DNA of 64,000 nucleotides from an uncultured Paraprevotella sp. (GTDB lineage: Bacteria > Bacteroidota > Bacteroidia > Bacteroidales > Bacteroidaceae): NCBI GenBank assembly GCA_944320775.1, contig CALUIV010000011.1:17831-81830 (forward strand), in the 5' to 3' direction. Of the stretch, positions 39,858 to 57,112 are shown piece by piece. Made by a program: the position numbers and the translations under genes. How positions within the stretch are numbered: the stretch's first letter is position 1; every line of letters begins with the position of its first letter. The notes under the pieces are model-generated. The model saw only the letters and a list, made by a program, of their open reading frames with translations. It was not told the origin of the DNA and searched no databases.

Positions 39858-40784
39858 TTAATAACTTCTTACAGTACTTTCCGATGAGGATTCGAAGGTC
39901 CGTACTTTACGTTGTTTGTTTTTGCTGCTCTTACCCTTTCTGAAAGAATACCTGACGCCCAACATGGCCCGGAAAGAACGGCCGATATTGTTACTGTAAT
40001 ATTCATAATAACCGTCTATATCCGTCTCGCCCCGGTAGGTCAACGGCTCAAAATAGCGGCATTGAAGCAACAGCATCCAGGAATCCGTCAGCCGGTAGGA
40101 CATGTCCAGACTACTTTCGGATACAGTTCTGGTATATCCGGTGAATGTACGCTGTTTGAACGTAACCGGGAATCTGAAACTGGCATAAAAACGCTTGGTA
40201 TTAATCGTTCCGTAGGGCATGAGCGAAGTACGCCAAAGATTTTTATTGAACTGCTCCTCACGGTCATCCTGATACATTGAATAGGAGGCGGTTGCATAGA
40301 TACCCAGTTTCAGCCACGAGTTTATAAACCAGGCGATATCGATCGTACCTCTCGGGGATTTCCAGCTGGAAGCGCGGCCGTAGGTAATGATGTTGATTCC
40401 CTCGTCGTTGACCTTGCTCAGAGAAGAGAACGAATTTCCCCATCTGTATCCCAGCGTCAGATAAAGATAAAGCTTCTTCACATAAGAATAGAAGCCCAGA
40501 GTCGTCGAGTGGGTATATACGGGCAGCAGATCGGGGTCGCCCTGATAGATGCGCACGGAGTCTACGGTAACCGGCGTCGGATTGAGCATCGACATGCCGG
40601 GCACCCGACGCGAACGCGCATAGCTGGCGCTGATGAACTGTTGCGGTGACATGATGTAGCGAAGACTGGCCGAAGGCATCACGTCGGCATAGACGTTCGA
40701 ACGCCCCAGGATCGCCGTCTTGGCAATATCCATTGTGGCTCCGACCCGGTAGAACCATTTGGGATGGAATTTTCCGGAAAGGTC

Positions 40785-40998
40785 GACATACAGGCTGTTG
40801 CGCCACTCCTGATACAGCAGGTCGGTGATGTCCTGATTGATCCGTTTGTAAGCGTCATTCCGTTTCCACGAAAACCGGTATCCTTCGCCCAGTGTCACCG
40901 GTTTCCATTTATGTTCCATATTGACCTGTACGTCGGCACTCATGTTGTCATTGTCCTCAAACTGATTGACCTGGTTAAACGGTTCACTGTTTTCGGTT
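40785..40998. repeat. 214-bp exact repeat, receptor copy 1
   Basis: Identical base for base, by eye, to 43201-43414 (offset 2416), within the barrel-coding part of the tandem receptors. A second identical block is 41494-41694 = 43910-44110, in the plug. Flanking barrel regions are clearly diverged. Confidence 0.88.
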
Positions 40999-42098
40999 TC
41001 CATTTCCCGATAGTCACTTTCAGGTTTCATGTTATACCACGAATAATTGGCATCCACGCTCAATGTGTGGATTTTGTTCCATGTAGTCTGGTGATAAAAA
41101 TCGGCTTTGGCAGCGTGATAGAAACATTCATCATTTTGCGCTGCAAAATAATCATGTACGTTTCCTGCCTGTTCATCCTGAATCTGGTATGTTTCTTCTG
41201 ACTGTTGATGGGAGTACGAATAAGATAAAGACAGCGAACTGTACGAACGGTCAGAAGGCGTATAGTCAATGCTGGTACCGAAATGTGGACCGGCCATATT
41301 AAATGTGCCGTCGTCCGACCGGCGCTCCATGCGGTTCCACTGCTCTCCTTGTCTTGTCTTACGCAACGTATAACTCTCCCGGTTATCTTCATCGAAATAA
41401 AAATTATTTCCATACAAAGAATAAGTCCATTTCTCATAGACTCCGGTAAAGCTGGCGTTTTGTGTTCCAAACTGTAGCAACGGATCCTGGGTTAAGGACA
41501 AGTTTCCTGAATAGCCCCGGACAGGTTCCTTGGTGACAATATTAATCAGGGCCCCGACACCGCGCGACAAATAGCGCATGCTCGGAAAACGACTGACCTC
41601 TATCCGCTCGATTGTCTTCGGATCGATGGTCTGCACATAATATTTATCACGCCGGATGTTGTTGACCATGATCTGCGTCGCCCCTTCGCTGCCCCGTACG
41701 GAAGCATCGTTATTGATCGGATTTACATCTATTCCAGGTATATCGGCCAGGGCCATAAACGCCGAAGCAGCATTCCGCTTGACCCGGCTGGACAGGGTGT
41801 AGACCTCCTTGTCGTCTTCCATCCGGACCACCGTGCGCTCCATTTCGCCACTGACCGAAACTTCGCCGAGCGACTTGACCGACTCTTTCAAGAGAATATC
41901 GCCAATGTAGGTTTGCCGGTCCGTGCCGTGTACCGACAATGCATGTTCGTAGGGCACGTAGCCCATGTGCAGCACCTGCAGGACGTAACGGGCCGTATCG
42001 GCCTGAAACCGGAACATGCCCCACTGGTCGGTGGAGACAACCTGTAAAGGGGTGGAATCGTTGGCCAGATAAAGCAGCACCGTGGCCTGCTGCAATGC

Positions 42099-42125
42099 GA
42101 CACTGTCCTGATTCAGGACAGTGTC
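42099..42125. repeat. Perfect palindrome at the frameshift site
   Basis: GACACTGTCCTGA (42099-42111), one base, TCAGGACAGTGTC (42113-42125). The intact paralogue at 44515-44540 has the same left arm but TCAGGACGCGTC on the right, an imperfect palindrome one base shorter. Confidence 0.92.
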
Positions 42126-42273
42126 CGCTCACGGTTTTCTGGGCTTGTGCCCCAAGTGCCGTGCATAAGAACAGCACTAATGCAGAGAAAAATTTTTTCG
42201 TTGTCATCATATGCAAATATTTATTTAGTATTTAATGTGAAATTGGGAAAATTTTTTCGTTGGATTACCTTGA

Positions 42274-44625
42274 TTAATATTTTCCTACAGTACTTTCCGA
42301 TGAGGATTCGAAGGTCCGTACTTTTCGTTGCCTGTTTCTGCTGCTCTTACCCTTTCTGAAAGAATACTTGACGCCTAATATAACCCGAAGAAAACGGCCG
42401 GTATCATTACCGTAATTTTCGTAATAACCGTCTATATTTGTTTCGGTTTCAAAAGTCAATGGTTGAAGATAGCGGCATTGAAGCAACAGCATCCAGGAAT
42501 CTGTCAGCCGGTAGGACATGTTCAGACTACTTTCTTTCGTCTTTTTTGTGTATCCGGTGAGTGTGCGCTGTTTGATTTTAACCGGAAACCTGAAACTGGC
42601 ATAAAAACGCTTGGTATTAATCGTTCCGTAGGGCATGACCGAGGTGCTCCAAAGATTTTTATTGAACTGTTCCTCATAGTCATCCTGATACATCGAATAG
42701 GAGGCGGTTGCAAAGACACCTAATTTCAGCCACGAATTTATAAACCAGGCGATATCGATCGAACCGTTCGGGGCTTTCCATCCGGAAGCGCGGCCGTAGG
42801 TAATGGTGTTGATTCCCTCGTCGTTGACTTTGCTCAGAGAAGAGAACGAATTTCCCCAGCCATATCCCAGCGTCAGATAAAGATAAAGCTTCTTCACATA
42901 AGAATAGAAGCCCAAAGTCGTCGAATGGCTATATACGGGCAGCAGATCGGGATTACCCTGATAGACGCGCACGGAGTCCGTGGTAATCGGCGTCGGATTG
43001 AGCATCGACATGCCGGGCACCCGACGCGAACGCGCATAGCTGGCACTAATATATTGTCGCGGCGACAGGGTGTAACGAAGACTGGCCGAAGGCATCACGT
43101 CGGCATAGACGTTCGAACGCCCCAAGATCGCCGTCTTGGCAATATCCATCGTGGCTCCGGCCCGGTAGAACCATTTGGGATGGAATTTACCGGAAAGGTC
43201 GACATACAGGCTGTTGCGCCACTCCTGATACAGCAGGTCGGTGATGTCCTGATTGATCCGTTTGTAAGCGTCATTCCGTTTCCACGAAAACCGGTATCCT
43301 TCGCCCAGTGTCACCGGTTTCCATTTATGTTCCATATTGACCTGTACGTCGGCACTCATGTTGTCATTGTCCTCAAACTGATTGACCTGGTTAAACGGTT
43401 CACTGTTTTCGGTTGCCATTTCCCAATAGTAGTTTTCAGGTTTTATATACGTCCACAGATAATTGGCATCCACGCTCAACGTGTGGATTTTGTTCCACGT
43501 AGTCTGGTGATAAAAGTCGGCTTTAGCCGTGTGATAGGGACGTTCTTCTTTTAGCATCGCGAAATAATCATGTACTTCCCCTGCTTGTTCTTCCTGTACA
43601 CGGAACGTGTTTTTTGCCCGCTCACTTGTATAGGTATAAGATAAAGACAGTGAACTGTACGAACGGGCAGAAGGCACATAGTCAATGCTGGTACCGATAG
43701 ACGGACACACCATATTGGCCGTGCCGTCGTCTGACCGGCGCTCCATGCGGTTCCACTGTTCTCCTTGTCTTGTCTTACGCAATGTATGACTCTCCCGGTT
43801 TTCTTCATCAAAATAGAAATTACTTCCGTACAAAGAATAAGTCCATTTCTCATAAACTCCGGTAAAATTGGCATTTTGTGTGCCGAATTCCAGTAACGGA
43901 TCCTGAGTGAAGGACAAGTTTCCTGAATAGCCCCGGACAGGTTCCTTGGTGACAATATTAATCAGGGCCCCGACACCGCGCGACAAATAGCGCATGCTCG
44001 GAAAACGACTGACCTCTATCCGCTCGATTGTCTTCGGATCGATGGTCTGCACATAATATTTATCACGCCGGATGTTGTTGACCATGATCTGCGTCGCCCC
44101 TTCGCTGCCCTGTACGGAAGCATCGTTGTTGATCGGATTTACATCTATTCCGGGCACATCGGCCAGAGCCATAAATGCCGAAGCGGCATTCCGCTTGACC
44201 CGGCTGGACAGGGTGTAGACCTCCTTGTCGTCTTCCATCCGGACCACCGTGCGCTCCACTTCGCCACTGACCGAAACTTCGCCGAGCGACTTGACCGACT
44301 CTTTCAAGAGGATATCTCCGATGTAGGTTTGCTGGTCCGCGCTGCGTACCGACAATGTATGTTCGTAGGGCACGTAGCCCATGTGCAGCACCTGCAGGAC
44401 ATATCGGGCCGTATCGGCCTGAAACCGGAACATGCCCCACTGGTCGGTGGAGACAACCCGCAAAGGGGTGGAGTCATTGACTAAATAAAGCAGCACCGTG
44501 GCTTGCTGCAATGCGACACTGTCCTGATTCAGGACGCGTCCGCTCACGGTTTTCTGGGCCTGTGCCCCAAGTGCCGTGCATAAGAACAGCACTAATGCAG
44601 AGAAAAATTTTTTCGTCGTCACCAT
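42274..44625 (-). CDS. TonB-type outer-membrane receptor with carboxypeptidase-like N-terminal domain
   Basis: Outer-membrane receptor-like protein, 783 aa, intact. Signal peptide at residues 1-23 (cleaved after GAQA). CarboxypepD_reg-like domain (about 25-100: KTVSGRVLNQDSVALQQATVLLY), TonB plug (about 105-215: DVPGIDVNPINNDASVQGSEGATQIMVN, IERIEVSRFPSMRYLSRGVGALINIVTK) and a C-terminal barrel of the OMP_b-brl_3 type. It ends at 62 bp before the paralogous copy on the same strand, so the two likely formed one transcript. It lies divergent to a PAS-LuxR regulator. Ligand unknown. No SusD partner is present. Confidence 0.88.
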   Translation of the reverse strand: MVTTKKFFSALVLFLCTALGAQAQKTVSGRVLNQDSVALQQATVLLYLVNDSTPLRVVSTDQWGMFRFQADTARYVLQVLHMGYVPYEHTLSVRSADQQTYIGDILLKESVKSLGEVSVSGEVERTVVRMEDDKEVYTLSSRVKRNAASAFMALADVPGIDVNPINNDASVQGSEGATQIMVNNIRRDKYYVQTIDPKTIERIEVSRFPSMRYLSRGVGALINIVTKEPVRGYSGNLSFTQDPLLEFGTQNANFTGVYEKWTYSLYGSNFYFDEENRESHTLRKTRQGEQWNRMERRSDDGTANMVCPSIGTSIDYVPSARSYSSLSLSYTYTSERAKNTFRVQEEQAGEVHDYFAMLKEERPYHTAKADFYHQTTWNKIHTLSVDANYLWTYIKPENYYWEMATENSEPFNQVNQFEDNDNMSADVQVNMEHKWKPVTLGEGYRFSWKRNDAYKRINQDITDLLYQEWRNSLYVDLSGKFHPKWFYRAGATMDIAKTAILGRSNVYADVMPSASLRYTLSPRQYISASYARSRRVPGMSMLNPTPITTDSVRVYQGNPDLLPVYSHSTTLGFYSYVKKLYLYLTLGYGWGNSFSSLSKVNDEGINTITYGRASGWKAPNGSIDIAWFINSWLKLGVFATASYSMYQDDYEEQFNKNLWSTSVMPYGTINTKRFYASFRFPVKIKQRTLTGYTKKTKESSLNMSYRLTDSWMLLLQCRYLQPLTFETETNIDGYYENYGNDTGRFLRVILGVKYSFRKGKSSRNRQRKVRTFESSSESTVGKY
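43201..43414. repeat. 214-bp exact repeat, receptor copy 2
   Basis: Partner of 40785-40998 in the upstream receptor copy. The exact-match patches within diverged genes suggest gene conversion. Confidence 0.88.
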
Positions 44626-44915: not shown

Positions 44916-45665
44916 ATGGACATACATAAGTTATTTAACCAATTAAATAAAGTCAGTGATGCCATTGATTATTCCGAAAGGGAAGCCGCTCAGCTGATCC
45001 ACATCATTAAACTGATTTTGGCAGACGAATATCAGAGTTTTTATATCATTGATTATAGCCGGAAGAAATTTGTATATGTCCATGAAAATCCCTTGTTTCT
45101 TTGTGGACATTCTGCCCAGGAAGTGCAATGCATGGGCTATGATTTTTATGCGCGATACGTACACCCCGAGGATATTCCCTTTTTGTTTGAAGTCAATGAA
45201 ATCGGTTTCGGCGGATACTGGCAACTTTCGGAGGAAGATCGTGAAAAGGATATTTATATATCCTATGATTTCCGAATCCGGAGTGGGGATACTTATTTGC
45301 CTGTACGGCACACCTTGATTCCACTGATCAAGAATAAACGGCAGGAAATCGTCTGGGCTTTGTGCAAGGTTTCCTTGACCGATCAGAAGCATCCGGGACC
45401 CATTATGGCTCGATTGGGCGAGAAAGAATTACTTTGGAATCGGGAAACAAAATGCTGGGACGAACTTCCGAAACCCAAATTAAGCGAGAAAGAAAAGGAA
45501 ATTGTCCGTATGTCTATCCAGGGCTATACGGAAAAAGAAATGTCGGACCTGCTGCAACTGTCTGAGAGCGCCGTTAAACGAAGGAAAAAATTTTTGTTTC
45601 AGAAGTTACGCGTGAAAAATATGTCCGAGGCTATTGTCTGTTGCAGCAATAAGAAACTGTTTTGA
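44916..45665 (+). CDS. LuxR/GerE-type transcriptional regulator with PAS-like domain
   Basis: A 249-aa regulator. Residues about 35-165 look like a PAS sensor (FYIIDYSRKKFVYVHENPLFLCG, YVHPEDIPFL, FRIRSGDTYLPVRHTLIPL), followed by a linker and a C-terminal GerE helix-turn-helix (KLSEKEKEIVRMSIQGYTEKEMSDLLQLSESAVKRRK split over about 189-230). No phosphoacceptor receiver domain is present. It lies divergent to the receptor pair across 290 bp, so it may control them; that is inference. The last 118 bp are duplicated at 48045-48162. Confidence 0.87.
   Translation: MDIHKLFNQLNKVSDAIDYSEREAAQLIHIIKLILADEYQSFYIIDYSRKKFVYVHENPLFLCGHSAQEVQCMGYDFYARYVHPEDIPFLFEVNEIGFGGYWQLSEEDREKDIYISYDFRIRSGDTYLPVRHTLIPLIKNKRQEIVWALCKVSLTDQKHPGPIMARLGEKELLWNRETKCWDELPKPKLSEKEKEIVRMSIQGYTEKEMSDLLQLSESAVKRRKKFLFQKLRVKNMSEAIVCCSNKKLF
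45548..45665 (+). repeat. 118-bp repeat, copy in intact LuxR gene
   Basis: From CCTGCTGCAACTGTC to the stop codon TGA. It matches 48045-48162, same length, with scattered substitutions. Confidence 0.9.
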
Positions 45666-46023: not shown

Positions 46024-46055
46024 TTTGGGTAGTTCAGCGAAATATTGTACTTTTG
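46024..46055 (+). promoter_or_regulatory. Promoter of the AbiE operon
   Basis: TTTG (46024-46027), 20 bp, TACTTTTG (46048-46055): consensus. Predicted start of RNA is near 46062, which excludes the in-frame start at 46045. Confidence 0.78.
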
Positions 46056-46067
46056 CATTGAAAAATC

Positions 46068-46096
46068 TGTCGCCAAAAAAGCATTCTTTGGCGACA
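46068..46096. promoter_or_regulatory. Inverted-repeat operator in the AbiE leader
   Basis: TGTCGCCAAA (46068-46077) and TTTGGCGACA (46087-46096) are perfect inverted repeats, 9 bp apart, just after the predicted transcription start. AbiEi antitoxins elsewhere bind inverted repeats at their own promoters. Confidence 0.7.
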
Positions 46097-46110
46097 AAAC
46101 AATAGTAAAA

Positions 46111-46722
46111 ATGGCAACACAAAGCATTGAGAACAAGATACTTTCAGCCATAAATAGGAAAAAGCACGGTGTGATACTATTTGCAAGCGATTTTGCGGAT
46201 TTGGGAGAGCGTAAAGCCATAAACAAGGCATTTGAACGCATCGCCCTGTCCGGAAAGATAATCCGTCTTGCAAGGGGCATCTATTGTAAGCCGAAAGTCG
46301 ATACCGAGTTCGGCTTCGGCATCGTTTATCCCAGTGTGGATGATGTCGCCAAAGCCATCGCGCAGAGAGACAAGTGCCGTATCGTACCGACCGGTGACGC
46401 TGCACTGAACAAACTCGGACTTTCCACGCAAGTTCCGATGAATGCGGTTTATTTCACGGACGGTACATCCCGAAGAATAAAGGTTTATAACGGTAGAGGT
46501 ATTCTCTTCAAGCACGTCGTACCCAAGAGACTCGATTTCAAATCAGAGCTTGTCATGCTGATAACCTTCGCTCTCCAAAGGCTTGGACAAGGTAACGTGC
46601 GTGAGGACCAACTTAACCGTGTCAAGCAACTACTATCCAATGAACCCAAAGAGCAAATAGCCGAGGACTTGAAACTTGTTCCGGGATGGATTCGCTCTAT
46701 AATATTGAAAACGTATGAATAA
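46111..46722 (+). CDS. AbiEi-type antitoxin (DUF6088)
   Basis: Type IV toxin-antitoxin antitoxin, 203 aa. An N-terminal winged helix (SIENKILSAINRKKHGVILFASDFADLGERKAINKAFERI) is followed by the domain with LARGIYCKPK and the AbiEi C-terminal region. ATG 46111 is chosen because the promoter lies at 46024-46055. The 3' end overlaps the toxin gene by 8 bp. By analogy it represses its own operon and counters the toxin without direct binding. Confidence 0.88.
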   Translation: MATQSIENKILSAINRKKHGVILFASDFADLGERKAINKAFERIALSGKIIRLARGIYCKPKVDTEFGFGIVYPSVDDVAKAIAQRDKCRIVPTGDAALNKLGLSTQVPMNAVYFTDGTSRRIKVYNGRGILFKHVVPKRLDFKSELVMLITFALQRLGQGNVREDQLNRVKQLLSNEPKEQIAEDLKLVPGWIRSIILKTYE

Positions 46723-47722
46723 ATTCCTTCAACTTCCGCCGGATACACGCCGTACCATCTATGAACAAGTCAGTTTACGGTTAGGCATTGACGATCCCAA
46801 GGCTATCGAGAAGGATATTTGGGTTACTGGGATTCTGCAAGCGGTCTATACATTGCCCTATGCGGATAAACTGGTTTTTAAGGGAGGGTCATCCCTTAGC
46901 AAGATATGGAATCTGATCTCCAGATTCTCGGAAGACATCGACCTTGCCATTGACCGGAGTGTTTTCGGTCTGGAGGGCGACCTGACCAAGAAGCAACTGA
47001 AAAAACTGCGTAAAGCATCATCTCTGTTTGTCAAGGATGTATTTGCCGTGGATTTGCAGGGAGTTGTCAATGAGAAAGGTCTGGCCGACCACTGCACGAT
47101 AACACCGGATCCGGACGGTGAAGGGGATGCGACCTATCCGGAACCTCGAAAGGTTCATATCGCTTACGAATCTGTTTTTGGCAATTCCAGTCCCGATTAT
47201 CTGCAATCCGAGGTATTGTTGGAAATTGGAGCAAGGTCGTTGTTCGAGCCTACCGCCAAGGCCAAAGTCAAATCTTTGGTGAGCAAAAATTCCACGATAG
47301 ACACCACTGTTGCAGACGTGGATATAATCTCAGCCGTGCCGGAAAAGACTTTTCTGGAAAAGGCATTTCTGCTTCACGAACTGTTTACCACCAACGGTTG
47401 CCGCCAAGCAAACCGCAAATCACGCCACCTTTATGATTTGATGAAAATGATGGACGAACCGTTTGCACAGAAAGCAGTTGGCGATGATGAGTTGTGGAAT
47501 ACCATCCACCATCATAGAGAGCTGTTCACATCCATCAAGGATGTGGATTATACGCCCGACATACGCAAACGCATTGTCCTATTACCTCCTGAAGAGGTGT
47601 TGAAAGTATGGCAAGATGACTACAAGGCCATGCAGGAGTCCATGATATACGGCGAACATCTTACATTCGAGCAGCTCATTTCCAAAATAGAAGAGTTGCA
47701 GACGCGGTTCCGTTCAATCTGA
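46715..47722 (+). CDS. AbiEii-type nucleotidyltransferase toxin
   Basis: A 335-aa DUF1814/AbiEii nucleotidyltransferase. Active-site motif I is KGGSSLSK (Gly57-Gly58-Ser59) and the metal-binding carboxylates lie in SEDIDL (Glu73, Asp74, Asp76). Further signatures are LEKAFLLHELF and SRHLYDLMKM. Relatives transfer nucleotides to tRNA and stop growth on phage infection. The gene is complete and overlaps the antitoxin, so the system looks functional. It is flanked on the right by IS21 debris. Confidence 0.9.
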   Translation: MNKFLQLPPDTRRTIYEQVSLRLGIDDPKAIEKDIWVTGILQAVYTLPYADKLVFKGGSSLSKIWNLISRFSEDIDLAIDRSVFGLEGDLTKKQLKKLRKASSLFVKDVFAVDLQGVVNEKGLADHCTITPDPDGEGDATYPEPRKVHIAYESVFGNSSPDYLQSEVLLEIGARSLFEPTAKAKVKSLVSKNSTIDTTVADVDIISAVPEKTFLEKAFLLHELFTTNGCRQANRKSRHLYDLMKMMDEPFAQKAVGDDELWNTIHHHRELFTSIKDVDYTPDIRKRIVLLPPEEVLKVWQDDYKAMQESMIYGEHLTFEQLISKIEELQTRFRSI

Positions 47723-56999: not shown

Positions 57000-57063
57000 A
57001 CGTTTCAGATAGGTGGTATGGGGGCAAAATCCCGCCGTTTCCTGAATTTGTTGATTCGAACAT

Positions 57064-57103
57064 AAAAAATAAAAGCAGGGTGTTTGCCCTGCTTTTATTT
57101 TTT
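57064..57103. terminator. Bidirectional terminator between nitroreductase and DPP IV genes
   Basis: A 17-bp perfect stem (57064-57080 with 57087-57103, core AAAAGCAGGG / CCCTGCTTTT), 6-nt loop, with A run before and T run after. Confidence 0.93.
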
Positions 57104-57112
57104 ATGTTTTGT

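Follow-up and report, generated by a model that had tools for sequence, protein, structure and literature searches.

Why does one of two tandem receptor genes in this gut-type bacterium lose its reading frame exactly at a perfect inverted repeat, and could a single hairpin event have both completed the repeat and broken the gene? Paraprevotella and its close kin are a group of gut commensals. The window (the whole stretch of 64,000 nucleotides that was analysed) is taken from a draft assembly (2,824,089 bases, 61 contigs; completeness figure 91.05%), in which it corresponds to G000:C11:17831-81830.

The receptor genes and their inverted repeats

The same contig carries three copies of the receptor gene: a tandem pair, A and B, which in contig coordinates occupies G000:C11 57688-62455 on the minus strand, and a more distant copy, C (Table 1). 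The reading frame of C is open throughout and its protein is 86% identical to that of A; at the DNA level, B is 94% identical to C and 90% identical to A.

Table 1. Positions of the receptor copies and of the inverted repeats; numbering is that of the window unless a contig is named.
Feature	Position	Strand	Description
Receptor copy A	42274..44625	-	Intact, 783 aa; in tandem with B, 63-nt gap
Receptor copy B	39858..42210	-	Frame lost after residue 30; open part matches Pfam PF14905 and PF07715
Receptor copy C (L021)	G000:C11:8274-10628	+	Third paralogue, outside the window, same contig, ~47 kb off
Perfect inverted repeat in copy B	42099..42125		13-bp arms, 1-base spacer; arms 42099-42111 and 42113-42125
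Imperfect (presumed ancestral-type) inverted repeat in copy A	44515..44540		From the alignment with B and C

Copy A matches the Pfam models PF14905 (OMP_b-brl_3 barrel) at 98.1 bits (cut-off 27) and PF07715 (TonB receptor Plug) at 25.1 bits (cut-off 23.9), and the open part of copy B scores 103.3 and 28.4 bits with the same two models; A and the open part of B are therefore above the Pfam cut-offs for an outer-membrane beta-barrel, TonB-dependent-receptor-like protein. Carboxypeptidase-regulatory-like matches at the N-terminus of A fell below the Pfam cut-off (30.2 vs. 32.2 and 29.2 vs. 32.3). The NCBIfam search left A without a match and gave the open part of B one match far under the cut-off, and a PDB sequence search returned 0 matches at E <= 0.01. 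A structure prediction intended for mapping the variable patches of the receptor, made from a two-row alignment, had a mean pLDDT of 24.1 and was set aside.

Divergent from the A-B pair lies a LuxR/GerE-type regulator (44916-45665), a candidate regulator of the pair, and at 46045-47722 a DUF6088 gene is followed by an AbiEii nucleotidyltransferase gene, an arrangement that looks like an AbiE-type toxin-antitoxin pair.

The first-pass annotation, which was made from the letters of the window, had described a perfect palindrome in B and an imperfect one in A, and we found both sequences where it had placed them. In A and C the repeat consists of a 7-bp inner stem around a 1-base spacer, a 3-by-2 internal loop and a 3-bp outer stem; this imperfect form is present in both intact paralogues (two of two), and of these C is the closer to B. 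The rewritten arm in B is the right arm on the plus strand (42113-42125), and it is the exact reverse complement of its partner at 13 of 13 bases, just as the annotation had said that the changed right arm copies the left. The annotation had also counted two substitutions plus one insertion, whereas the simplest alignment of GCG with AGTG contains one substitution and one inserted base, and this is how B differs from both A and C, within three bases, in the alignment of the three genes. Apart from this, that alignment is interrupted only by a codon-sized gap at columns 896-898 and, at its ends, by columns that stem from how the sequences were trimmed. Folded as single-stranded DNA, the A site reaches -7.4 kcal/mol (z -0.98) and the B site -14.7 kcal/mol (z -4.75); the corresponding RNA folding values are -19.1 and -25.1.

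The frame of B is lost just behind what, judged by eye, is a signal-peptide-like start, and the shifted frame stops at 41710. The remainder is open in the original frame (ORF 39858-42095, minus strand) over 745 codons, as first reported, and shows by eye no signal-like start. A product started inside this remainder would have no signal sequence and should therefore not reach the outer membrane; together with the early loss of frame, this supports, at the level of sequence, the proposal that the gene has been inactivated. Over the open part, B has 14 non-synonymous and 12 synonymous codon changes of its own, compared with 23 and 20 specific to its sister C (Fisher p = 1), and pairwise dN/dS is 0.30 for A-B, 0.30 for A-C and 0.35 for B-C. 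These small numbers give no sign of relaxed selection or long neglect in B, and with no stop in the 745 codons they are in keeping with the earlier suggestion that the event was recent.

Origin of the frameshift

We consider it likely, with a probability of about 0.84, that copy B was put out of frame by one template switch that corrected a quasipalindrome. The nascent strand would copy the first hairpin arm, fold back via the 7-bp inner stem, extend across the mismatched internal loop using its own arm as template, and use the outer 3-bp stem to get back to the true template; the 3-against-2-base internal loop would thus become a perfect stem, with one base gained and one altered in one step. 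If the switch was intrastrand, the nascent strand would be the plus strand of the window and the rewritten arm would be the second one made; an intermolecular switch would yield an identical product. We infer that this was a single event, that it occurred during replication and, if intrastrand, on that strand, and that the gene product was lost.

A single template-switch event had been proposed at the outset, and it is strongly supported by the imperfect form in both intact paralogues, by the exact copy of the arm and by the exhaustive test described below. It is further backed by the lack of any other exact donor in the assembled genome, where the 13-base arm occurs exactly at four places, all of them within the three receptor genes, and with one mismatch at two places elsewhere; the pattern of the whole site occurs at three places.

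All 8 bins of the window show positive GC skew, which is weakest (0.014) where the site lies; under the usual GC-skew rule, the plus strand would be the leading strand. This assignment proves little, because PMC6357072 reports a 5-azacytidine effect that is stronger on the leading strand (44-fold vs. 12-fold), while according to PMC10710837 the lagging strand may form hairpin mutations more readily.

The main residual doubt, and an improbable one, is that a hairpin-induced error entered the draft consensus and that the real copy B is intact. Such an artefact would suit a draft in 61 contigs with near-identical paralogues and a hairpin at the very site, but the perfect form occurs at no other place in the assembly and is thus not a mis-join of known copies. 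Besides B, no examined gene in the window was split over two frames (judged by eye from domain ranges and the ORF list), which is a weak argument against a poor consensus.

Still less credible is that an ordinary substitution and an ordinary 1-base insertion arose independently and completed the hairpin by coincidence. B does have other differences of its own lineage, with 47 columns of the alignment unique to it, but among the 126,576 comparable replacements only the observed one completes the 13-bp arm. This count comes from an exhaustive test of every two-for-three-base replacement in A and in C (126,576 per gene, plain single-base insertions and the extreme ends left out), scored as a success when a perfect arm reached 13 bp or more at a spacer of up to 60; one replacement succeeded in A and one in C, and both times it was the change seen in B. 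The change in B exceeds chance expectation. A looser simulation with random replacements over the whole window, in which plain insertions and existing hairpins were not excluded, gave 2 successes in 20,000.

We also scanned 60 clusters of lineage-specific differences (10 in B, 14 in C and 36 in A, the last unpolarised because there is no outgroup) for a local reverse-complement source of at least 8 bases, and the one cluster that had such a source was the hairpin site in B. Because the reversed-sequence control likewise gave 1 of 60 (an 11-base match in C; the complement control gave 0 of 60), the scan alone is weak, and it is the exhaustive test that carries weight.

Perfect repeats with arms of at least 10 and spacers of at most 12 number eight in the window, vs. 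0-3 in 15 order-2 Markov sequences, where the longest arm was 11. According to the ORF list, intergenic gaps hold five of the eight, one of which reaches an ORF by a single base, and two others are close to the 5' end of ORFs that the list gives with TTG starts. With spacers limited to 12, the longest hairpin in the window is a perfect one of 22 bp with a 6-base spacer (57059-57108), located between two convergent ORFs and probably a terminator.

Probable exchange among the copies and the question of a switch

That the imperfect form came first is suggested by paralogues A and C, which probably exchange sequence, so that conversion could have made the two alike. Searches for relatives gave little to set beside them: of 18 same-genus genomes, the window's own was the one with the site pattern (0 of the 17 others); the family search found the receptor at E <= 1e-40 in 3 of 399 genomes, i.e., its own genome and two at 26-27% identity; and among the loci around the neighbouring murF-alr in relatives (80 of 564, many ending at contig edges), one carried a receptor homologue (L085, 23% identity). 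In the first eight of these 80 loci, the nearest named relatives of murF-alr itself are Paraprevotella records, mostly MAGs, with identity of 74% at best. A protein search of genome_contigs returned 21 pattern matches, no relative among them, and a search of viral_contigs returned none. Thus the same-genus, family, murF-alr-locus and contig searches yielded no orthologue near enough to tell the direction of the change.

The three receptor genes look like conversion mosaics, and their alignment makes conversion within the family likely. B and C are identical over a tract of 486 alignment columns, A and B over 225, and all three over 201 and 173, and divergent patches between copies reach 36 differences per 100 columns, mostly around columns 900-1200. 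Runs of matching polymorphic sites were longer than in shuffled data for B-C (27 sites; 0/5000) and A-B (8 sites; 3/5000) and were not for A-C (2881/5000). Part of this pattern could stem from uneven constraint and from B and C being closer kin.

Copy C is opposite in orientation to A and B and about 47 kb from them, forming a long inverted repeat, so that the segment between could in principle flip.

The first-pass annotation had also raised the idea that the receptor might be switched reversibly. This is not supported: hairpin correction erases the information needed for a return by the same route, and the reaction is one-way because both arms hold the same information once it is complete. 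Since the three genes look like mosaics, a return of B to the imperfect form by conversion from A or C is conceivable, and recombination with one of these copies would be the only such route.

Taken further, the locus could be read as a contingency on/off system, in which the hairpin silences receptor copies that intact sisters then switch back on or reshuffle by conversion; the quasipalindrome, imperfect or corrected, would then lie just behind the signal-like start of every copy, and template switching would silence at an elevated rate. The tandem arrangement of A and B, the same quasipalindrome in the other two copies and the mosaic look of all three genes would accord with such a system. 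However, common descent or homogenisation accounts for the shared quasipalindrome, conversion across the site was not seen, and the hairpin reaction alone runs in one direction only; we regard the system as very unlikely, and an elevated rate of silencing as equally so. Gene conversion from another copy as the origin of the perfect form was rejected, this form being absent elsewhere in the assembled genome.

Known counterparts and biological meaning

Template-switch mutation at quasipalindromes has been described in E. coli (PMC7202029; PMC6357072), and quasipalindrome correction is known in phage, bacteria and yeast (PMC7202029; PMC8604942; PMC10710837). In the reaction, as outlined in PMC7202029, the nascent strand templates on itself and then returns, and the repeat becomes more perfect. 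These sources (PMC7202029, PMC6357072 and PMC8604942) bear out the statement in the first reading of the locus that template switching corrects imperfect palindromes.

The event that we favour for copy B resembles those at the E. coli thyA hotspot, lacZ QP5/QP6, phage T4 rIIB and yeast CYC1, in that a clustered change copies the partner arm and leaves the repeat perfect or more so (PMC7202029; PMC6357072). The lacZ reporters involve a 4-bp deletion, whereas copy B has an insertion and a substitution. Homogenisation of inverted-repeat arms has also been reported in yeast protein-coding genes, and there, too, a multi-base change in a coding gene perfects an inverted repeat and is polarised by relatives; the changes given in the abstract of that report are amino-acid replacements, whereas in copy B the reading frame is broken (PMC8604942). 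Unlike the E. coli, T4 and CYC1 systems, the event in copy B is a natural one, read from a comparison of paralogues in a draft Bacteroidales genome with no laboratory selection. Van Noort et al. reportedly dealt in 2003 with strand misalignment that corrects quasipalindromes; the likeness to copy B is taken from the title of that work.

In the literature searched (titles and abstract openings, with most subscription journals outside the scope), no such event was described in Bacteroidales, and the match for Bacteroides together with quasipalindrome was a paper on Hfq (PMC7603069). The mechanism is long known; what copy B adds is a new natural instance of it, one whose record is unusually clear, rather than a new mechanism. 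Three copies in one genome supply both the before and the after states, leaving a clean natural footprint of a replication error that has been studied with reporters. An adjacent insertion and substitution of this kind are not to be counted as independent mutations, and one hairpin event can be the first step towards losing one gene of a surface-receptor family.
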